Source: Bryobacter aggregatus MPL3
GTDB taxonomy: Bacteria > Acidobacteriota > Terriglobia > Bryobacterales > Bryobacteraceae
NCBI RefSeq assembly: GCF_000702445.1
Contig: NZ_JNIF01000003.1
Location: forward strand, 3,472,001-3,536,000
Direction: 5' to 3'
DNA length: 64,000 nucleotides
A program made the position numbers and the translations under genes. Position 1 is the first letter of the stretch. Every line of letters starts with the position of its first letter. The notes beneath the pieces were generated by a model, which saw only the letters and a list, made by a program, of their open reading frames with translations, was not told the origin of the DNA and made no database searches. Positions 14,201-48,009 of the stretch are shown in pieces.

Positions 14201-15863
14201 AAGCGTGATTACGGCGAAGGGCATCACGAACGAAGAGAGCGATGCGATGGAATATACGATTCCGATCAAGTCCTATGGAACGCTGTTCTCCAATGGTGCG
14301 AGCGGTGCTCTGACCGGGAAGCAGAATGCGAAGGCTGTCTTGAAGGCGCCGGGCGCCGGCAACCGGACAGTCGAAGTGAGCGTGTCCCCGTCGCTGGCGG
14401 GCAGCTTGTTTGGGGCGCTCGACTATTTGACGAAGTTTCCTTACGGGTGCACGGAGCAGACGATGTCAAGCTTTTTGCCGAATGTGATTGTCTCGAAAGC
14501 GCTCGACGATTTGCACATCAAGTCGAATGTGAATCGGGATGAGCTGTTCAAGAAGGTGAATGCCGGGCTCGATCGTCTTTATGACTATCAGCATGGAGAT
14601 GGCGCCTGGGGCTGGTGGAAGACCGACGAGTCGCATCCGTTCATGACGGCGCATGTGGTGTCGGGGTTGAAGCAGGCCAAGGAAGCAGGATATGAGGTTT
14701 CGCCGGACGCGATTGAGCGTGGCGAGAAGTGGTTGCGTGGCGAGTTTAAGCGGCAATCCGATGCGGTGGTCGATTTGCGGGCCTATATCGCTTATGCGCT
14801 GGGCGGCAAGCAGGATGTCGATGTGGTTTGGGAGCAGCGCTCGAAGATGTCAAGCTATGGGCTTGCCTTCCTGGGGCTGGCGCTCGACCGGCTGAAGGAT
14901 CCGCGGGCTCTGGGGATTGCACAGGAGCTAGAAGCGGCAGCCAAGCAGAACGAGAGCGAAGCCTGGTGGCCGGGAACTCGCGATTCGTTGCTGGACTTTA
15001 ACGACGACATCACGCCAGAAATCACCTCTTATGCGCTGAAGCTGCTGAGCCATCAGCGGCCGAGCTCGCCGTTGTTGCCGAAGGCAGCGTCCTGGCTTGT
15101 GATGCATAAGGACCAGGGCGAGTGGTGGAACTCGACGAAGCAAACGGCCATGGTGATCTATGGCGTGACGGATTACTTGAAGGTGAGCGGGGAACTGAAG
15201 CCGGATCTCAAGGTGACGGTGCTGGTGAATGGCAAGGAGGTGCTGGCGAGAGAATTTCAGGAAGCCGATGCAATGGCGCTCAAGCCTTATGTCGCGTCGG
15301 TTGCAGCCGCCGATAGCAATGAGGTTGAGGTGAAGGTGAGCGGTACGGGGCGCGCGTATTGGTCGGCGCAGGCGAAGTATTATTCCCCGGAGGAAGGCCG
15401 CAAGCCGAGCGAGGGCGGGACGATGTCCGTGAAGCGCGAGTACTACCGGCTGCTTCCTCGTGAGAATGCCGGCGTGACGACTTATGCGCTGGAGCCGTTG
15501 TCGGGGGATATCCATCCCGGTGATTCGATTGCGGTGCTCCTCAATGTGACGGCGAAGGATTGGAAGTATGTGTTGATCGAAGATCCGATTCCGGCGGGTA
15601 TGGAGTTGGTGACCAACGACAACACGATCAATCTGGCGGGCAAGCCGACCTGGTGGCGTTATTCCTGGGCGCAACGCGAATTTCGCGATGACCGGGTGGC
15701 CTTCTTCCGGACCTACTTCTTTAACGACACGGCGCAGTACTTCTATGTGATGAAGGCGGTGAACCCAGGAAAATTCCGGGTGTCTCCGACCCGCATCCAA
15801 CCGATGTACCAGCCGCAGCAAATGGGAACGGGCAGCGCTGCTGTTCTTGAGGTGAAGCAATGA
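11292..15863 (+). CDS. Bacterial alpha-2-macroglobulin with thioester
   Basis: 1523 residues from ATG 11292, preceded by GGAGGGG; an upstream in-frame start at 11220 lies inside the previous gene. A signal peptide (RRWLLFAALMVVVPVVAQ) is followed by a series of MG beta-sandwich domains, including MG2-type YVYTDRPVYRPGHKVYFKAILR and later a GVVDEALYAV segment before the bait-like stretch (KLRPSLGQLKPERVGDPRVR). The A2M core FWTADLVTDASGKGKVEFAFPDALTMWRTTARG precedes the thioester motif PYGCTEQ (Cys1053-Gln1056). A TED domain (YDYQHGDGAWGWW) and C-terminal domain follow. Such proteins trap foreign proteases in the periplasm. No pbpC lies next to it; its partners here are a DUF1175 protein and a membrane protein. 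Confidence 0.95.
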   Translation: MRRWLLFAALMVVVPVVAQEDGGTYFALTSNKTFAPGEKALIQMWAQGIKSLDFRLYRVEKAGDFLGQLSDAHSFGNRVAELPKEDTAIAKFLNWKCRLRSKSQLFVRAQFTPEARTSFRGRTETEAAPKVEPATKGTSYAAIPILNDRQLLKTWKETVSTKQRWDEQPVAVPVSEPGLYLVEATDGKLRAYTLLSVSGMAVLTKTQPGQAIARVVDRISGQALAGVDVEFRSQKQSHGVFKTDLGGFAKLSGADSTDVFVIASRGKDVAFDSLNVYNLQPDEGHRMTTYVYTDRPVYRPGHKVYFKAILRKPAAFGYDLPTMRAVTAEITDSEGKPVFRKEISVSEFGTVKGEYELPMTAGLGYYGLKFSSGSMESYGGFNVEEYKKPEYEVRIRTTKPRVVQGERVDATVQAKYFFGEPVKGAKVTYTVRRAPYYPPWYERDEDAERTVDEDESGGEGFSGEQGEEKTGKLNDQGELVISLPTPVAARDYLFRVEAKVMDEGNREVTGYGLVIATHGSYMASVTADKYVVEPGATASYTVTLKDYDSKPIVGDFRAELKRYAFKDGHRSDTVVETSSGRTAENGEAKLSFRVPEAGSYILTVTSRTPEGRDVKDEAWTWVSGYGGIYGGDEETIKLITDKKKYAPGDVAKILILTTAPDTDIWVTTECRTVIDSRAVKAASAGGVTIEVPVKSEYQPKVFVTASYLKAGKLYQGTATIKVPPIEKELSINVVPSKQEFKPGEPARYNVEVKDSKGQPARAELSLGVVDEALYAVQKDMTQTPLGYFYGNVYNEVNSSNSLSYYFRGEAGKRAMRLAKLRPSLGQLKPERVGDPRVRKAFPDTAFWTADLVTDASGKGKVEFAFPDALTMWRTTARGVTTDTKVGLTLNRVIVRKNLMLRLVTPRFLMEGDELSIGVIVQNYLSSAKDTKVSLSATGVELLEGAEKTVNVEAKGSKKVEFRVRVKPGAESVITAKGITNEESDAMEYTIPIKSYGTLFSNGASGALTGKQNAKAVLKAPGAGNRTVEVSVSPSLAGSLFGALDYLTKFPYGCTEQTMSSFLPNVIVSKALDDLHIKSNVNRDELFKKVNAGLDRLYDYQHGDGAWGWWKTDESHPFMTAHVVSGLKQAKEAGYEVSPDAIERGEKWLRGEFKRQSDAVVDLRAYIAYALGGKQDVDVVWEQRSKMSSYGLAFLGLALDRLKDPRALGIAQELEAAAKQNESEAWWPGTRDSLLDFNDDITPEITSYALKLLSHQRPSSPLLPKAASWLVMHKDQGEWWNSTKQTAMVIYGVTDYLKVSGELKPDLKVTVLVNGKEVLAREFQEADAMALKPYVASVAAADSNEVEVKVSGTGRAYWSAQAKYYSPEEGRKPSEGGTMSVKREYYRLLPRENAGVTTYALEPLSGDIHPGDSIAVLLNVTAKDWKYVLIEDPIPAGMELVTNDNTINLAGKPTWWRYSWAQREFRDDRVAFFRTYFFNDTAQYFYVMKAVNPGKFRVSPTRIQPMYQPQQMGTGSAAVLEVKQ

Positions 15864-41123: not shown

Positions 41124-41731
41124 TCCACGCTCCGCACTTCAAAGAACTTTTTGCGATCGAGCATGGCTTTGGGACTCGGGACGAGGAGTCCTGGCTGCCT
41201 TCAGCCGGACATGCCTGGGCGAAGCAGATTCATTCTGACCGGGTGATTCGCGCCACAACTGAAGGCCTGCAAGGCGAAGCAGATGCCGTGGTGACCACGG
41301 TGCCGGAGTTGTGGGTCTCCATTCGTACCGCCGATTGCCTACCGATCCTGCTCGCCGATCCGGGAGCGGGTGTTGTGGCTGCGGTTCACGCCGGGTGGCG
41401 CGGTACAGCCGCAAAGATCGTTGCAAAGACGGTGGAGAAAATGGTTGAGCTCGGCGCCGAGCTTACGACGATTCATGCGGCGATCGGGCCTGGCATTGGC
41501 CTGTGCTGTTTCGAGGTTGGCCCGGAGGTCTCGTCAGAGTTCGGTGTGACAGGCCGCAGTTGTATTGATCTTGCCGGAGTGAACGAACGGCAACTCCAAC
41601 TTGCAGGCCTTGAACTGGAGAACATCTGGATCTCGGCGCAATGTACGAAGTGCAATCCCGAGTTGTTTCATTCCTATCGCGCTGAGCCGGGTACTGCCGG
41701 CCGCATGGTGAGCGCGATTCGTCTTGTCTGA
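41120..41731 (+). CDS. pgeF: Peptidoglycan editing factor PgeF (laccase-domain protein)
   Basis: 203 residues, overlapping nuoB by ATGA. The CNF1/YfiH fold is recognisable by [50 protein letters not shown] (metal-site Cys), [17 protein letters not shown] (metal-site His), [18 protein letters not shown], and [22 protein letters not shown]. These zinc enzymes hydrolyse L-Ser-containing muropeptide precursors (they were earlier called polyphenol oxidases). The N-terminal region is slightly short relative to the usual 240-250 residues. Confidence 0.95.
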
Positions 41732-41791
41732 AACCCTCAAAAATATTTAGCACTTGTGATGGTTTCCTTGCGGTTCCTACGCATGGATGGA

Positions 41792-41817
41792 CAGGAAGGC
41801 GGTGGAACCGCTTCCTG
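41792..41817 (+). promoter_or_regulatory. Strong hairpin in the leader of the repeat peptide gene
   Basis: CAGGAA-(G bulge)-GCGGT / ACCGC-TTCCTG with a three-base loop, 11 paired bases with one bulge, 27 bases upstream of the ATG. There is no T run after it, so it is not a classical terminator. A leader-control or mRNA-stabilising role is inferred. Confidence 0.5.
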
Positions 41818-41844
41818 AAATTCAGACTCAAAGAGGACCATACA

Positions 41845-42138
41845 ATGAAAACCAATATCTCCATCAAAACGAAGCTCAATGCTGGCGGGATCCATGTCAA
41901 CCACAACACTCCGGTTGTGAAGACCAAGGTCAACGCTGGCGCAATCACGGCGAATCACAGCACTCCGGTCGTAAAGACGAAGGTGAGTGCTGGCTGCCTG
42001 ACGGCAAACCACAATGCACCGGTTGTAAAGACCAAAGTGAGCGCTGGCTGCTTGACGGCGAATCACAACACTCCGGCCGTCAAGACCAAGGTCGTTGCTG
42101 GCGCACTGTCCAACAACCACAACGTCGTCATGGCTTAA
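41845..42138 (+). CDS. Five-repeat NHN-motif peptide, unknown function
   Basis: 97 residues from an ATG with AGAGGA eight bases upstream. After MKTNIS come five exact 18-residue repeats (residues 7-96), consensus VKTKVxAGxxTxNHNTPV, and a final Ala. Lys-Thr, Gly and Asn-His are kept in all five; the third base of codons varies freely between units, showing selection on the peptide. Units 3 and 4 carry Cys (SAGCLTANHN). There is no signal peptide, membrane segment or double-Gly leader, so it is probably cytoplasmic. Candidates: a precursor of a modified peptide with repeated cores, a short beta-solenoid or amyloid-like repeat (18 residues fits one turn), or a metal-binding protein. A second peptide with the same core lies beyond the sigma factor gene. 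Confidence 0.75.
   Translation: MKTNISIKTKLNAGGIHVNHNTPVVKTKVNAGAITANHSTPVVKTKVSAGCLTANHNAPVVKTKVSAGCLTANHNTPAVKTKVVAGALSNNHNVVMA
41863..42132 (+). repeat. Five tandem 54-bp coding repeats
   Basis: Units at 41863-41916, 41917-41970, 41971-42024, 42025-42078 and 42079-42132. Each begins at the Val/Ile codon of [VI]KTK and ends after the Pro-Val/Ala codon. Differences are mostly at synonymous third positions, for example AAGACGAAG versus AAGACCAAA in units 3 and 4, so this is an old protein-level repeat rather than a recent slippage product. Confidence 0.85.
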
Positions 42139-42180
42139 GCATCAGCTTGGACAAAGAATGAGGGAGGGGAAGTCGGCTGG

Positions 42181-42813
42181 ATGAGGCCGGATCCCTCTCC
42201 CGATGATGAGGTAGTCTTACGGAAGGTGTCTGCTTCTGATTCCCTTCCAGTTACTGTGTTGCTCCAAAAATGGCGCGATGGGGACCAGTCTGCTCTCGAC
42301 CTGCTGACTCCGATCGTTTACAGTGAACTCCGGAGACTAGCCGGCCATTCCATCCGCCGCGAAAGGCCTGGCCACACGCTGCAGCCCACCGCGCTGCTCC
42401 ATGAAGCCTACGCGAAACTCGCGCAGCAAGGCCAGCACGATTGGCAGAATCGGGCTCATTTTTTTGGCGTGGCTGCCCATATCATGCGGCTGATTCTGGT
42501 GGATCATGCCAGGAAGAAGAAGCGGATCCGGCGCGGGAGCGGAGCGGTCAATCTCCAGCTCAATGAGTCTCTCGACGCCGTGCAGCAGCGCCCCGCTCTG
42601 CTTGTCCAACTCGATGATGCACTCAACGAACTGGCAAAATTTGACGAACGCAAGGCGAAGGTCATCGAGATGAGATTCTTTGCGGGAATGAGTCTGGAAG
42701 AAACGGCGGAGGCGCTTGGCGTCGGTGTGGCGACGATTGGCCGCGAACAGCGGTTGGCGCAAGCCTGGATTGGACGCTACCTGTCTCCCGCAGAAGAAAA
42801 GAATTGCGAATGA
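42181..42813 (+). CDS. ECF-type sigma factor, TIGR02999-like
   Basis: 210 residues. The TIGR02999 group of ECF sigma factors, expanded in Acidobacteriota and Planctomycetes, is recognisable: VTVLLQKWRDGDQSALDLLTPIVYSELRRLAGHSIRRERPGHTLQPTALLHEAYAKLAQQ, NRAHFFGVAAHIMRLILVDHARKKKRIRRG (region 2), and DERKAKVIEMRFFAGMSLEETAEALGVGVATIGREQRLAQAWIGRYL (region 4). A GGAGGGG ribosome site lies about 12 bases before the ATG; a GTG at 42226 is a possible later start. It lies between two peptide genes that share the same NHN repeat core, 42 bp after the first and 90 bp before the second, so it may control them. No anti-sigma gene is adjacent. Confidence 0.92.
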   Translation: MRPDPSPDDEVVLRKVSASDSLPVTVLLQKWRDGDQSALDLLTPIVYSELRRLAGHSIRRERPGHTLQPTALLHEAYAKLAQQGQHDWQNRAHFFGVAAHIMRLILVDHARKKKRIRRGSGAVNLQLNESLDAVQQRPALLVQLDDALNELAKFDERKAKVIEMRFFAGMSLEETAEALGVGVATIGREQRLAQAWIGRYLSPAEEKNCE

Positions 42814-42848
42814 TGATCGATTCCGGGAGCGGACAGCGCTAGAGCGTT

Positions 42849-42877
42849 CGTAAGATTGCGGATCCCCGCAGCTTACG
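42849..42877 (+). promoter_or_regulatory. Hairpin between sigma gene and second peptide
   Basis: CGTAAG (42849-42854) pairs with CTTACG (42872-42877), and inside it TGCGG (42857-42861) pairs with CCGCA (42866-42870), 11 pairs with a four-base loop. It ends 26 bases before the ATG of the second peptide gene. No T run follows. It parallels the hairpin before the first peptide gene. Confidence 0.5.
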
Positions 42878-42903
42878 GATTTCATCCAGAAAAGGAAACT
42901 CTA

Positions 42904-43068
42904 ATGACTGTCAAGAAGAATGCCTCTTTGCCGATCCGTACCGCCATTCGCTTCGGAGCGATCAGTGTCAATCACAATGCAAGCGCGGTTCCCGTGGTTC
43001 GTACTGCGATCCGTTCCGGCGCCATCAACCTCAATCATAATGAGCGGTGTGTTTCGTCCGGCCGCTAG
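42904..43068 (+). CDS. Two-repeat NHN-motif peptide, unknown function
   Basis: 54 residues from ATG 42904 with AAGGAAA about seven bases upstream; a longer frame to 42856 crosses the hairpin and has no ribosome site. Two units, IRTAIRFGAISVNHN (residues 11-25) and VRTAIRSGAINLNHN (32-46), are 21 residues apart. They match the core of the 97-residue peptide upstream, [KR]-T-x-[ILV]-x-x-G-[AGC]-[IL]-x-x-N-H-N, with Arg in place of Lys. One Cys sits in the tail (ERCVSSGR). No signal peptide. The coding status rests on the shared motif and the ribosome site. Confidence 0.7.
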   Translation: MTVKKNASLPIRTAIRFGAISVNHNASAVPVVRTAIRSGAINLNHNERCVSSGR

Positions 43069-43083
43069 TCTGCAATCATGAAG

Positions 43084-43124
43084 ATCACGAACGCCCGTTT
43101 TGCCACGATGGCGTTCGTGATTTG
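43084..43124 (+). terminator. Terminator-like 12-bp hairpin closing the peptide locus
   Basis: ATCACGAACGCC (43084-43095) and GGCGTTCGTGAT (43110-43121) are perfect inverted repeats around a 14-base loop, followed only by TTTG. It lies 16 bases after the second peptide stop and about 55 bases before the riboswitch. The weak T run makes termination likely but not certain. A 23-codon frame (43078-43146) running through it is not considered a gene. Confidence 0.55.
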
Positions 43125-43179
43125 CGCCCGTTGCTGCCTATCGGATTGAGCTCTCTTTTGCGATAATCGAAGCTACGCA

Positions 43180-43345
43180 AGACGGGAGAGACTGCCGCTT
43201 TGTCAGGCAGCGCCGAAGGAGCAACCGCCCCGGAAACTCTCAGGCAAAAGGACCGTTTTCGTGTTGGAAATCTGGAAAGTGTCGATCGCACAAGCGAATC
43301 GTCCGCCGACGGGATAACACTCTCAGGCAACAACGACAGATGGGG
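43180..43345 (+). ncRNA. Tandem glycine riboswitch
   Basis: The leader of gcvP has the hallmarks of both aptamers. First: GGGAGAG (43184), GCGCCGAAGGAGCAA (43210 region), and AACTCTCAGGCAAAAGGACCG (43235-43255). Second: ATCTGGAAAGT (43270 region), CGCCGACGGGATAA (43304 region), CACTCTCAGGCAACAACGACAGAT (ending 43341). The ATCTG/CAGAT closing stem of the second aptamer is intact. It senses glycine and controls glycine cleavage, consistent with the gcvP gene directly downstream. Confidence 0.95.
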
Positions 43346-43370
43346 CGCTAAGGAGATCACTCTTGCGCCC
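43343..43370 (+). promoter_or_regulatory. Ribosome-site sequestering hairpin of the glycine riboswitch
   Basis: GGGCGC (43343-43348) can pair with GCGCCC (43365-43370), enclosing AGGAG (43351-43355) in the loop and using the last base of the TTG start codon (43363-43365) in the stem. GGGCGC begins two bases after the aptamer 2 closing stem, so ligand binding could alter this pairing. This suggests control of translation rather than of transcription. Confidence 0.6.
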
Positions 43371-46215
43371 AGACTCGCCCGCCACTACCTTTGCCCGCCG
43401 GCACATCGGCCCTTCCCCTCGTGAAATTGATGCGATGCTTGCCACCGTTGGGGCGACTTCGCTCGAAGACCTCATCGCGCAAACGGTCCCAGGTACGATT
43501 CGTCAGAAATCTCCGCTCGCCTTTGGCGAGGCGTTGAGCGAGACGGCGGTGATTGCTCGCATGCGTGAGATCGCAAGCAAGAACCAGGTCTTCACCTCGC
43601 TCATTGGCACCGGCTATCACGGTACGCTTTTGCCCTATGTCATCCAGCGCAATCTTCTCGAGAACCCCGCCTGGTATACCGCCTACACGCCGTATCAACC
43701 TGAGATCAGCCAGGGCCGGCTGGAGGCGCTGCTGAACTTCCAGACCATGATCTGCGACTTGACGGGGCTCGATGTGGCGAACGCTTCACTGCTTGACGAA
43801 GGCACTGCTGCCGCTGAGGCGATGGCGCTCGCGCAACGGGTGGCGAAGAATCCCTCGACCAGCTTTTTTATCGATCAGGATGTCCATCCTCAAACGCTCG
43901 CTGTGATCGAGACTCGTGCGGAAGCACTTGGCTGGAGTACCATTGTGGGCAATCCGGCAACCGAGCTGCACGCAGCCGATGTGTTTGGTGCGATCTTTCA
44001 GTATCCCGGCAGTGAGGGCGCGGTTGTCGACTATCGCGATGCTGTGGCTGCCCTGCATACGAAGGGTGCGATTGCGGTGTTTGCCGCTGATCCCTTGGCG
44101 CTCACGCTGCTGACGCCGCCTGGTGAATTGGGCGCGGATATCGCGATTGGTTCGACACAACGCTTTGGGGTTCCGATGGGTTATGGTGGGCCGCACGCCG
44201 CCTATATGGCAGTAAAGGATGCCCATAAACGATCGATGCCGGGCCGGCTGGTGGGCGTGTCGATCGATGCAAAAGGCAACTCCGCCTATCGCCTGGCCCT
44301 GCAGACCCGTGAGCAACACATCCGCCGTGAAAAGGCGACTTCGAACATCTGTACGGCGCAGGTGCTGCTGGCTGTTATCGCTTCAATGTATGCCGTTTAT
44401 CATGGGCCCGAGGGGCTGAAGTGGATTGCGCTTGAAGTGGCCCGGAAGACGGCGCTGCTTGCCGCGGGCTTGCGCAAGCTGGGTTTCGAGATTGGGAACA
44501 CGAGCTTCTTCGATACGCTGAGTGTGGCTGTTGGGGCGCGGCAGAACGAGATTGTGACGCGTGGACTTGCTGAGAAGTTGAACTTCCGGTTGCTCGACGG
44601 CAAGCTTGGAATCACGCTCGATGAGACGACTACGGACTCCGTTCTCGAAGCGATCTGGCGTGCCTTCGGTGGCAATCTGAGGGTGTCTGAGGTGGAGGCG
44701 CCTGCCTCGGGCTTGCCTGCTGCTCTGGCGCGGACCAGCGAATATCTCACCCATCCTGTTTTCCATCGCTATCGCACGGAAACCGAATTGCTGCGCTACA
44801 TGCGTAAGCTGAGCGATCGGGATCTGGCGCTCGACCGTGCCATGATCCCACTCGGCTCCTGCACGATGAAGTTGAATGCGACGGCCGAGATGATGCCGGT
44901 CACCTGGCCGGAGTTCGGCAGCCTGCATCCCTTTGCCCCGCTCGACCAAGCGGCCGGGTATACGGAGATGTTTGAGGATCTAAAAGCGAAGCTCTGTGCA
45001 GTGACGGGTTATGATGCCGTTTCGCTGCAGCCGAATTCGGGTGCGCAGGGCGAGTACGCGGGTTTGCTTGCCATTCGGGGGTACCATCGGAGCCGGGGCG
45101 ATCAGCATCGCACGGTCTGCCTCATCCCGGCTTCCGCGCATGGCACGAATCCGGCGTCGGCGCACATGGTTGGCATGGAGGTTGTGGTTGTCGCTTGTGA
45201 TGCGGGTGGCAATGTGGATGTTGCGGATCTGCGCGCGAAAGCAGAGCAACACTCGGCGAAGCTGGCTGCGCTGATGGTCACTTATCCTTCGACGCATGGC
45301 GTGTTTGAGGAGAGTATCCGCGAGATTTGTGAGATTGTGCACGCGCACGGTGGACAGGTTTATCTTGATGGCGCGAATCTCAATGCGCAGGTCGGGATTT
45401 CACGTCCGGGGGATTATGGCGCCGATGTTTCGCACTTGAACCTCCACAAGACCTTCTGCATTCCGCATGGTGGGGGTGGGCCGGGAATGGGTCCGATTGG
45501 GGTGAAAGCTCACCTCACGCCGTTTCTGCCGGGGCATCCATTCCTCGATGGCGGCCAGGCGCCGGTTGGGCCTGTTTCTGCCGCGCCTTTCGGTTCCTCC
45601 TCAATCCTGCCGATTTCGTACGTTTACATTCTGTTGATGGGCGGCGAGGGTTTGCAGAAGGCGACGGAAGTCGCGATCCTGAATGCGAACTATATTGCCT
45701 CGCGGCTGTCGGATTCGTTTCCGGTGCTGTACCGCAATCACAATGGGCGCGTCGCACATGAGTGTATTGTTGATCCCCGTTCGCTGAAGAACAGCAGTGG
45801 CGTCACTGTCGACGATATCGCCAAACGCTTGATCGATTATGGCTTCCATGCCCCGACGATGAGCTTTCCGGTGGCAGGAACGCTCATGATTGAGCCGACC
45901 GAATCGGAGGGCAAGGGGGAACTCGACCGCTTCTGCGATGCGATGATCGCGATTCGCCGCGAGATCGCCGAAGTCGAAGCAGGGAAGTGGCCGATTGCGG
46001 AATCGCCGCTGCGCTTTGCCCCGCATACTGTCCATGATTTGGTGGTTGCGGAATGGCCCCGGAAGTATTCGCGGGAAGAAGGTTGTTTCCCGGAAGGAAC
46101 CGCGCGCGTGGACAAATACTGGAGCCCCGTTAGCCGCATCGACAACGTGTACGGCGATCGCAATCTGGTTTGCAGTTGCCCGCCGCTCGAGGAGTACGCC
46201 TCCGCCTCGAAGTAG
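43363..46215 (+). CDS. gcvP: Glycine dehydrogenase (decarboxylating), P protein
   Basis: 950 residues, full length for the single-chain P protein, from a TTG start eight bases after AGGAG. Features include [117 protein letters not shown], and the PLP lysine in [25 protein letters not shown] (Lys696). It decarboxylates glycine and moves the aminomethyl group to the lipoyl H protein. gcvT and gcvH are not in the window, so this gene is on its own with its riboswitch. A strong bidirectional terminator follows. Confidence 0.98.
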
Positions 46216-46311: not shown

Positions 46312-47649
46312 TTAAGCGAAAGCCTTGCGGCCTACGTTCGGACCACCCTTGGTGTTGCCGTTGATCTTCTTTCCTTTAATGAAAGAATGCTTCGGCTTCG
46401 GGCTGTGTGCCTTGGCGGCCTTCTTCACCTGGTAAGGCGTCGGAGGCGTTTTCTCGCGGGCATAGCCGTCACGAGAATAACCACGGTCACGATCTCCAAA
46501 CGAATCCGCTGGTCCATCCGCCGGATCGGCGGGCAGTTCCCGAGGAACTTCCTGACGCGGCATGGTCGTCTTGATGGCGCGCTCGATCTGGCGGATCGCT
46601 CCACGCTCGCCACTGGTGGCAAACGTCGAAGCAGTACCCTTCTGACCGGCGCGACCGGTACGGCCTGCGCGATGGATGAAGTCTTCGGGAGCCTGCGGAA
46701 GGTCGAAGTTCACAACGTGTTCAATACCATCCACGTGGATGCCGCGAGCGGCAACGTCGGTGGCGACCAGAACACGGTAGTAACCGTCTTTGAAACCTTC
46801 GAGCGCCTGCCGGCGCTGGCTCTGCGTACGATCACCATGAATCGCAGCCGTCTTGATGCCGGTACGCGCAAGGCGCTTGGCGAGACGGTCTGTCGAATGC
46901 TTGGTGCGCGCAAAGACAAGGAATGAACCCTGCTTTTGCTCCAGCAGATGGCGCAGCAAGCCCAGCTTACGATGCGCTTCTACTTCGTAGACATGAAGGT
47001 CGATATCCGCGCCTGGCTTTGTCGTCGCACCGATTTCGACACGCACCGGGTTGGGCACATGCTTGGCGATGAGCGGTACAATCGATCGCTCGATTGTCGC
47101 GGAGAAGAACAAAGTCTGACGTTGGATCGGAATCTGCGACAGAATCTGTTCGATCACAGGCAGGAAGCCCATGTCCAGCATGCGGTCGGCTTCATCGAGC
47201 ACCACGAACTTCGTGTTGCCGAGTTTCACCAGCTTGCGGCCGATGAAATCGAAGAGGCGTCCCGGGGTGGCAACCAGAACCTGGCTGCCACGCTGGATTT
47301 CGAACAACTGCTTGCCCTCATTCAGTCCGCCAACGACGACCGTGGCGCGCAATCCCGTATCCTTGGCCAGCTTCATGAAAGCTTCGTGGATCTGGATGGC
47401 GAGTTCACGGGTCGGCGTCATAATGACGGCCTGAACACCCTTAACCGGATTTTGTGAGAGCGATTGCAGAATCGGAAGCAAGAACGCAAGCGTCTTGCCG
47501 GTGCCGGTCTGCGCGGTAGCAACTATATTAGAACCCGTGAGCGCGGGCGGAATGGCCTTTGCTTGTACGGGAGTAGGCGTCTTCAAGTTGTTTGCCGCGA
47601 GATTTCGCTGTAACAACTCGGATAAAGGGAGGTCGGAAAATTGATCCAT
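46312..47649 (-). CDS. DEAD-box RNA helicase (RhlE-like)
   Basis: 445 residues with all helicase motifs: Q-motif (TPTPVQAKAIP), motif I AQTGTGKT (46-53), PTRELA, GG, TPGR, DEAD in FVVLDEADRMLDMGF, SAT in LFFSATIERSI, HGDRTQSQR, and HRAGRTGRAGQKG. The basic C-terminal tail (KVKKAAKAHSPKPKHSFIKGKKINGNTKGGPNVGRKAFA) is typical of RhlE-type proteins that act on ribosomes and structured RNA. It lies six bases downstream of an RRM-protein gene on the same strand; such pairs are often cold-induced. Confidence 0.96.
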   Translation of the reverse strand: MDQFSDLPLSELLQRNLAANNLKTPTPVQAKAIPPALTGSNIVATAQTGTGKTLAFLLPILQSLSQNPVKGVQAVIMTPTRELAIQIHEAFMKLAKDTGLRATVVVGGLNEGKQLFEIQRGSQVLVATPGRLFDFIGRKLVKLGNTKFVVLDEADRMLDMGFLPVIEQILSQIPIQRQTLFFSATIERSIVPLIAKHVPNPVRVEIGATTKPGADIDLHVYEVEAHRKLGLLRHLLEQKQGSFLVFARTKHSTDRLAKRLARTGIKTAAIHGDRTQSQRRQALEGFKDGYYRVLVATDVAARGIHVDGIEHVVNFDLPQAPEDFIHRAGRTGRAGQKGTASTFATSGERGAIRQIERAIKTTMPRQEVPRELPADPADGPADSFGDRDRGYSRDGYAREKTPPTPYQVKKAAKAHSPKPKHSFIKGKKINGNTKGGPNVGRKAFA

Positions 47650-47655
47650 TAGTTC

Positions 47656-48009
47656 CTAGTAACGACCCTTGCGGAAACCGCCGCCGCCGCCACCGGGACG
47701 TCCACCACCGCCACCAGGACGGCCACCGCCGCCACCAGGGCGACCGCCACCACGAGGACCGTCGGTCTTCGGGCGAGCTTCGTTTACTGTCAAATTGCGG
47801 CCATCGAGTTCGCGGCCGTCAAGACCAGAGATTGCATTCTCGGCTTCATTGCGGTTCGTCATTTCAACGAAGGCGAAGCCGCGGGGCTGACCCGTCATAC
47901 GGTCGGTTACTACGTTCACGCGTTCCACCGCGCCAAATTCTTGGAAGATCCCCATCAACTGATCTTCGGTCGTGTGGAAACTCAGGTTTCCAACATAGAG
48001 GTTCGTCAT
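47656..48009 (-). CDS. RRM-type RNA-binding protein with Gly/Arg tail
   Basis: 117 residues from ATG 48009 (the frame to 48078 is an upstream extension without support). One RRM domain covers residues 2-80, with RNP2 LYVGNL (4-9) and RNP1 RGFAFVEM (43-50), followed by a GGRPGGGGG-type repeat tail ending FRKGRY. It is like the cyanobacterial Rbp proteins. It is followed by the DEAD-box helicase gene after six bases. Upstream is a leader of roughly 95 bases from a TATATT -10-like box (48110-48115, minus strand), a length typical for cold-regulated mRNAs. Confidence 0.95.
   Translation of the reverse strand: MTNLYVGNLSFHTTEDQLMGIFQEFGAVERVNVVTDRMTGQPRGFAFVEMTNRNEAENAISGLDGRELDGRNLTVNEARPKTDGPRGGGRPGGGGGRPGGGGGRPGGGGGGFRKGRY

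Follow-up and report, generated by a model that had tools for sequence, protein, structure and literature searches.

The window considered here is the whole stretch of 64,000 nucleotides from Bryobacter aggregatus MPL3 that was analysed (C3:3,472,001-3,536,000 in its genome), and within it two ORFs built from related repeat units flank a gene for an ECF sigma factor. The features of this locus are as follows:

41756..41782, plus strand: possible promoter elements GTGATG ... CTACGC; weak, by eye also present before the L114 and L115 relatives
41792..41817, plus strand: predicted stem-loop CAGGAAG-gCGGT-gga-ACCG-CTTCCTG before the ribosome-binding site of the 97-residue ORF; z -2.7 over 65 nt
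41845..42138, plus strand: putative 97-residue repeat precursor, MKTNIS followed by five units [IV]KTK[LV]xAG-xxxxNH[NS]xxx; basis, the ORF, pS > pN and homologues
41863..42135, plus strand: the five units, 18 residues each (the last 19), apparently an 8-residue tag ending in AG plus an NHN-type cargo
42181..42813, plus strand: ECF sigma factor, TIGR02999/PF07638; TIGR02999 208 bits, cut-off 126
42847..42879, plus strand: predicted stem-loop before the second precursor; z -4.9, in a second computation z -4.4
42904..43068, plus strand: putative 54-residue second precursor with two related units 21 residues apart; basis, the ORF and profile matches

The coordinates of both ORFs (41845-42138 and 42904-43068), with the sigma gene in between, agree with the initial annotation of this DNA. 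For the second precursor, ATG 42904 was preferred over TTG 42856 as the start because the sequence AAGGAAA precedes it and because a start at TTG 42856 would put the stem-loop inside the ORF. The first ORF had been described as containing five exact 18-residue units, and while the register is indeed exact, the units are similar rather than identical (units 2-5 share 44-67% of their residues with unit 1) and the last has an extra residue. Their tags read, in order, IKTKLNAG, VKTKVNAG, VKTKVSAG, VKTKVSAG, and VKTKVVAG; the split of the units into tag and cargo would follow from comparison with tag-only ORFs found at exporters, described below. By the Nei-Gojobori method, pS exceeded pN in all 10 of the 10 unit pairs, and dS (0.38-1.73) exceeded dN in the seven pairs with a finite dS, the other three pairs being saturated. 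It is therefore the protein and not the DNA that is conserved, and the repeat units of the 97-residue protein are under purifying selection, as the synonymous differences between units had been taken to mean.

Between the second peptide gene, which it follows closely, and a gcvP-like gene (43363-46215, so named by eye) lies a glycine riboswitch aptamer (43173-43265; RF00504, 68.4 bits); the riboswitch is unrelated to the peptide finding. Farther on, short tandem repeats of 18/21 bases (47687-47753) are found just past a helicase-like gene (46312-47649, also named by eye).

Searches of the libraries and papers returned no convincing name for the peptides, which likewise had not been assigned to a named family at the outset. 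The best match in a PDB sequence search had an E of 0.47. When the two window peptides and six relatives were scanned with Pfam/NCBIfam, the matches were short and scattered and varied among the proteins. Three whole-protein passes in relatives, PF03460 in the 367-residue L121 peptide (27.6, cut-off 24), PF01523 in the L079 peptide (27.5, cut-off 20.9), and PF14852 in the L123 peptide (25.3, cut-off 25), had no single stretch passing and were treated as repeat noise. Among viral contigs, 11 stretches were matched and 0 confirmed.

In the window's own genome, a profile search retrieved convincing matches only to the two genes of the window, with the third place at E 0.84. Elsewhere, a narrow profile (A1), whose only sources were window units and those of the relative G030, reached independent genomes such as G648, G586, G584, and G501 with E-values of 2e-8 to 1e-5, so that the core shared by the two ORFs is not a product of chance. 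The same profile matched 24 of the 257 genomes of the order at E <= 0.05, some of them weakly and partially, and 153 of 396 genomes of the phylum at E <= 1, none of which, the own genome aside, was better than 0.009; of the marginal early matches, those in G035 and G030 were taken further. A broader profile of 78 units (A3) found the peptide in 19 of the 257 genomes of the order (E <= 0.01), all within the window's own family, and in none of the seven other genomes of its genus. In even samples (E <= 0.001), it found the peptide in three of 343 Planctomycetota genomes (two of them seeds, one new) and in five of 377 Myxococcota genomes (one a seed). We would like to note that the 78-unit profile was built from genomes later searched, so that its E-values for these look better than they should; G530, G994, and the four new Myxococcota genomes did not contribute to it, and the narrow profile had already reached most of the seed genomes. 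Homologues with the same core, on whose existence the initial annotation had staked its reading, are thus present in other genomes, and the family is real but patchy.

In the first loci fetched we counted 57 peptides, i.e., 66 listed rows less nine judged by eye to be chance matches. The first position counts were partly fixed by the search pattern and were repeated from anchors that put no constraint on the other positions. Among the 199 N-H dipeptides of these peptides with at least 12 residues ahead, Gly is found at -5 in 191, Asn after the His in 182, and then Gln in 153. Some other relatives have NHA, NHS, or NHG in place of NHN, and N-H rather than NHN is therefore the constant part. The smallest genes carry one unit (20-25 residues) and the largest about 15 (367 residues), a single tag being present in 23 of the 57 peptides, and the NHN spacing within one protein is mostly 18-26 and varies across the family. 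Gene finders are apt to overlook precursors of only 15-22 residues. One Planctomycetota genome (G655, loci L260 and L261) harbors nine repeat-peptide genes of the NHA type in about 36 kb, interspersed with kinase genes on the opposite strand, an arrangement suggestive of a diversifying family in which kinases are paired with the peptides. Another genome, G511, has 19 NHN peptide ORFs in the fetched loci (L088-L099), many adjoining kinase or sigma genes, and its one detected exporter is on a different contig from these loci.

The window genome contains 10 TIGR02999 genes over the cut-off, and for two out of two window peptide genes to flank one of them is therefore not expected by chance. The window sigma has QPTA (Thr70) at the place of the phosphorylated Thr of ECF43 sigma factors (matched by eye), which in passages of PMC8999054 is described as lying in an STTA motif. 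QPT, read by eye against that STTA motif, is present in 15 of 15 aligned sigma proteins, and this Thr motif, taken by itself, would place the TIGR02999 sigma with ECF43. There is no kinase gene beside the window sigma, and there is one beside many relatives' sigmas. Across the family, a sigma or Ser/Thr kinase gene lies within 3 kb of 29 of the 57 peptide genes, both window genes included, in keeping with the earlier suggestion of an undescribed peptide system linked to an ECF sigma. A Ser/Thr kinase gene lies within the same distance of 26 peptide genes, any partner gene of 41, and none of the remaining 16, some of which are near contig ends.

The ECF sigma encoded between the window peptide genes probably drives their expression. 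The regions upstream of peptide genes, those of both window genes among them, tend to fold better than controls, with a median z of -1.53 (n=52) vs 0.01 (n=130; p=3e-8), where the control starts are first start codons rather than verified starts. For the 41792..41817 region, a fold with the stem cut short gave a z of -0.95, and covariation in the stem-loops of five tag-only loci is slight (both sides changed in 4 of 12 pairs, covariation term +1). GTGA was found at -75 to -110 in 17 of 51 peptide upstream regions vs 32 of 337 controls. No full promoter motif emerged from the peptide upstream regions, none was obvious by eye before the genome's own exporter, and a sigma-70 promoter and terminator scan of 41600-43400 detected none.

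Clustering of the genes around the peptide genes retrieved, as recurrent neighbours, ECF sigma factors, Ser/Thr kinases, TPR proteins, HlyD adaptors, and pairs of ABC proteins, the first of each pair with a C39 peptidase. In five Bryobacterales loci (L084, L085, L109, L121, and L122), the genes follow one another on the same strand in the order peptide, HlyD, C39ABC, ABC2, with the TPR gene before or after; L116 keeps this order as far as its contig reaches, and in L123 and L125 a kinase gene is interposed. L123 also has a globin-like gene in this operon (14535-14975, 146 aa, 46.7 bits to a flavohemoprotein model with a cut-off of 432). The same peptide-exporter order is seen in Planctomycetota (L263, and L080, whose contig ends inside the C39 gene, before ABC2) and in Myxococcota (L282). 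The initial annotation had noted no transporter nearby, which is correct for the window and misleading for the genome, since a matching HlyD-C39ABC-ABC2-TPR cassette sits at C3:1,760,670-1,767,179, 1.75 Mb from the window peptides, its C39 exporter gene being the one at L145 9435-12017 (minus strand). Its top matches are 44-57% identical to the relatives' peptide-linked cassettes. No peptide was recognised beside this exporter, so peptide and exporter are unlinked there.

Using the first 285 residues of the own C39 protein as the query, we found the exporter in 36 of the 257 genomes of the order (E <= 1e-10). Both peptide and exporter were detected in 15 genomes, the exporter without a detected NHN peptide in 21, and neither in 217 (Fisher p=2e-11, a value made too small by shared ancestry). 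In four of the 19 peptide genomes, all draft assemblies (G501, G530, G536, and G584), no exporter was found. Of 35 aligned sequences, at least 95% retain the catalytic Cys of C39, and the same holds for its His and for its Asp. We infer, with good support from gene order and co-occurrence, that the peptides are exported by the C39 exporter. The view that the window ORFs are precursors, which the initial annotation had offered as one possibility, is thereby backed by a dedicated exporter that is invisible from the window alone, and the cassette of 36 out of 257 genomes in a little-studied order gains candidate substrates and so a testable function.

What the exporter might recognise is suggested by the seven exporter genomes without a detected NHN peptide, in which nine ORFs of 15-16 residues adjoin the exporter: MKVKSNVKAGRAVWGA, MKVKSNVKAGRTVWGA, MKVKSNVKAGKGLWGA, MKVKSSVRAGQSIWDS, MKVKSSVGAGRTFWGP, MKVKSKVNAGVVWGS, MKVKSKVNAGNTNWGV, and MTIKTNVKAGKKANR (twice). 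These contain only the first half of the unit (MKVKSNVKAG), followed by a different end (RAVWGA). They were chosen from a loose scan, which also returned many unrelated small ORFs, and then by a stricter scan; each is preceded by a ribosome-binding-like sequence according to a lax test. The stricter scan recovered a tag-bearing ORF close to the exporter, on the same strand, at 13 of 35 exporter loci. With additions made by eye, a tag-bearing precursor was recognised at 17 of the 36 exporter genomes (G627 and G623, about 5 kb off in the same operon; G557; and G534, whose HlyD gene is 117 bases from the peptide), and none beside the exporter in the other 19, some of which have little flanking sequence. 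Outside the zones near exporters, over 739 kb of strand length, the tag pattern matched 18 times, 15 of the matches being family members or nested starts and three plainly unrelated; in the window it gave one unrelated match. G557, which has NHN peptides elsewhere, has two precursors at its exporter that combine tag repeats with another cargo, and in G035 a QHN variant lies elsewhere than at the exporter. At L121 11049-11444 (minus strand), upstream of the 367-residue precursor, another tag-bearing ORF has a cargo that differs (MKTKTNVKAGRKAGVDFNENETSGLRVQTS...).

The first half of the unit is thus the common part, and we therefore read it as the exporter tag and the second half as cargo. When 189 tags were anchored on [KR][TS]x[VILM] alone, Gly occupied the expected position in 182 and was part of A-G in 166, and the residue after this Gly varied widely. 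All nine tag-only ORFs have K at -7 and nothing beyond -10; in the NHN units, K/R at -7 is partly a product of how the scan was constructed. The alternating LxVxTxVxAG pattern suggests an extended rather than a helical tag.

Taken together, these observations make it probable that the two window ORFs are precursors of small secreted peptides whose tag and cargo units are handled by a C39 exporter. Each unit would consist of an export and processing tag of 8-10 residues, [VIL]-[KR]-[TS]-x-[VIL]-x-A-G, and a short cargo, here with N-H-N. The C39-peptidase ABC exporter, with its HlyD adaptor and second ABC protein, would recognise the tag, export the cargo, and probably cut after A-G. Were cleavage to take place at every A-G, the five-unit protein would act as a polyprotein releasing up to five peptides. 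The sigma factor, which carries the Thr that kinases phosphorylate in ECF43 factors, would control the peptide genes. If so, C39 exporters may be able to use a 10-residue tag instead of a classical leader and to process tandem polyproteins, and the system may show what some orphan kinase-linked ECF sigmas of Acidobacteriota and Planctomycetota control.

One could guess that the peptides act as signals, to be perceived by membrane-type kinases whose genes adjoin many relatives. In 21 of 22 clustered kinases, the strongest hydrophobic stretch is C-terminal to the kinase motif, with 324-578 residues beyond the stretch (the 22nd, a fragment, lacks the motif), and this tail could therefore face the periplasm. 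A Pfam scan of the C-terminal parts of five of the 22 found TPR over the cut-off in one, below it in two, and not at all in two. Carried further, the idea would make the system a bacterial counterpart of animal prohormones, with many-signal polyproteins, the same 8-residue exporter-cut tag for each signal, one C39 transporter, and paired membrane kinases phosphorylating the ECF sigmas that control the peptide genes, one tag thereby serving several unrelated cargoes (NHN, NHA, QHN, and WGA). As TPR is only partly present in the kinase tails, we marked this extension down and consider it less likely than not.

The peptides could alternatively be precursors of post-translationally modified peptides (RiPPs), with an enzyme that is usually unlinked or of unknown kind. 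Multi-unit precursors are known among RiPPs, and the TPR neighbour matches FxSxx_TPR, albeit at 156 bits with a cut-off of 300. A Pfam scan of ten neighbours returned housekeeping and regulatory genes, a CotH kinase, and one candidate enzyme, a B12-binding radical-SAM protein encoded at L282 9264-11147 (plus strand), on the opposite strand to a Myxococcota peptide and about 1.7 kb from it. This protein may be a modifying enzyme or may be there by chance; its presence led us to mark the modified-peptide reading up. Nevertheless, no modifying-enzyme family is present in at least three of the 35 exporter loci, where the families recognised by eye at that frequency are exporter parts, TPR, kinase, permease-like, prolyl-oligopeptidase-like, and large TonB-type proteins and one likely antisense ORF. 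Modification, which the initial annotation had also proposed, therefore finds one neighbouring gene in its favor and no recurrent enzyme, and we consider it unlikely, although less so at that Myxococcota locus. The prolyl-oligopeptidase-like gene (L204, L206, and L218) is the only suggestive recurrent family and could reflect processing or chance.

The repeat protein might instead be exported uncut or kept whole and fold as a short beta-solenoid or fibre (matrix, adhesin, or amyloid-like). A single-sequence AlphaFold2 model with five strands at an 18-residue period (mean pLDDT 81.8, pTM 0.72) and the 367-residue member with its roughly 15 units agree with such a fold. However, PMC11795689 reports that AlphaFold2 yields confident yet unrealistic solenoids for repeat sequences, and Foldseek found no PDB match at E <= 0.001 (best 0.012). 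We gave the model little weight because it is a known artefact for such input and lacks a match at that threshold. Also against a solenoid, the many single-tag members are often only 20-25 residues long, the tag alone is kept in ORFs of 15-16 residues, and the NHN spacing is not constant across the family. For the solenoid that the initial annotation had envisaged, members of 15-25 residues are too short, and we judge it quite improbable. Least probable of all is that the peptides stay inside the cell as unsecreted partners or substrates of kinases and sigma factors, a view that draws on the 26 peptide genes near kinases and on the Planctomycetota contig with nine repeat-peptide genes among opposite-strand kinase genes but is countered by peptide-exporter operons in three phyla, by the co-occurrence with the exporter, and by the tag in precursors without the NHN part.

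Returning to secreted precursors handled by a C39 exporter, the closest parallels are PCAT1/CtA, ComA/ComC, and colicin V, where, as here, a C39 peptidase is fused to an ABC exporter, with an HlyD adaptor and small precursor genes adjoining. Similar to double-glycine peptides, the tag is a short N-terminal sequence ending in Gly with a hydrophobic residue at -4; in contrast to them, it ends in A-G rather than G-G and so does not follow the pattern of G(-2) with G/A/S(-1). The PCAT leader consensus given in passages of PMC6959990 is L(-12)xxxE(-8)L(-7)xxxxG(-2)G(-1). The 10-residue tag lacks L(-7), E(-8), and L(-12), being too short for -12, appears to follow the alternating LxVxTxVxAG rather than a helix pattern, and is repeated before every cargo. 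The hydrophobic -4 and Gly -1 fit a C39 site, whereas the A-G, the K(-7), and the 10-residue length break the PCAT consensus. Encoding together with a C39 exporter, as for PCAT peptides, is seen in the relatives, whereas the two are unlinked in the window genome. The combination of HlyD, C39ABC, and a second ABC cassette resembles NHLM/NHLP export (TIGR03794, TIGR03796, and TIGR03797), but the L121 proteins reach only 198.4 of the 853.3-bit cut-off for TIGR03796, 53.7 of 156.2 for TIGR03794, and 93.4 of 709.4 for TIGR03797. The own-genome cassette is not over the curated cut-offs of TIGR03796 and TIGR03794, and the Pfam/NCBIfam scans recognised no nitrile-hydratase or Nif11 leader in the peptides.

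Like the ECF43 factors that work with kinases (EcfP/PknT and EcfK/PknS), the sigma has a Thr replacing the DAED motif, has kinase genes beside it in many relatives, and has no recognised anti-sigma gene beside it in the window; unlike them, the window sigma adjoins peptide-precursor genes and no kinase. HetC of Nostoc is described in passages of PMC10986499 as a C39 exporter of unknown substrate with a cleavage signal that may be atypical. The present exporter is similar in its possibly atypical signal and differs in belonging to another phylum, the substrate of HetC not being identified there. A literature search on the motif, NHN peptides, and such exporters in Acidobacteriota, with subscription literature and preprint servers outside its scope, found nothing describing the system. 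In the cyanobactin precursor PatE, a multi-core RiPP precursor, the recognition sequence is repeated before each core, and multi-core precursors of this type rely on separate proteases for cleavage and on dedicated enzymes for modification. The window precursors would share with PatE a recognition sequence before each core and differ from it in that no recurrent modifying enzyme was found. The system seems to work like C39-exported peptides yet departs from their leaders in two sequence features, and it looks like an undescribed secreted-peptide system.
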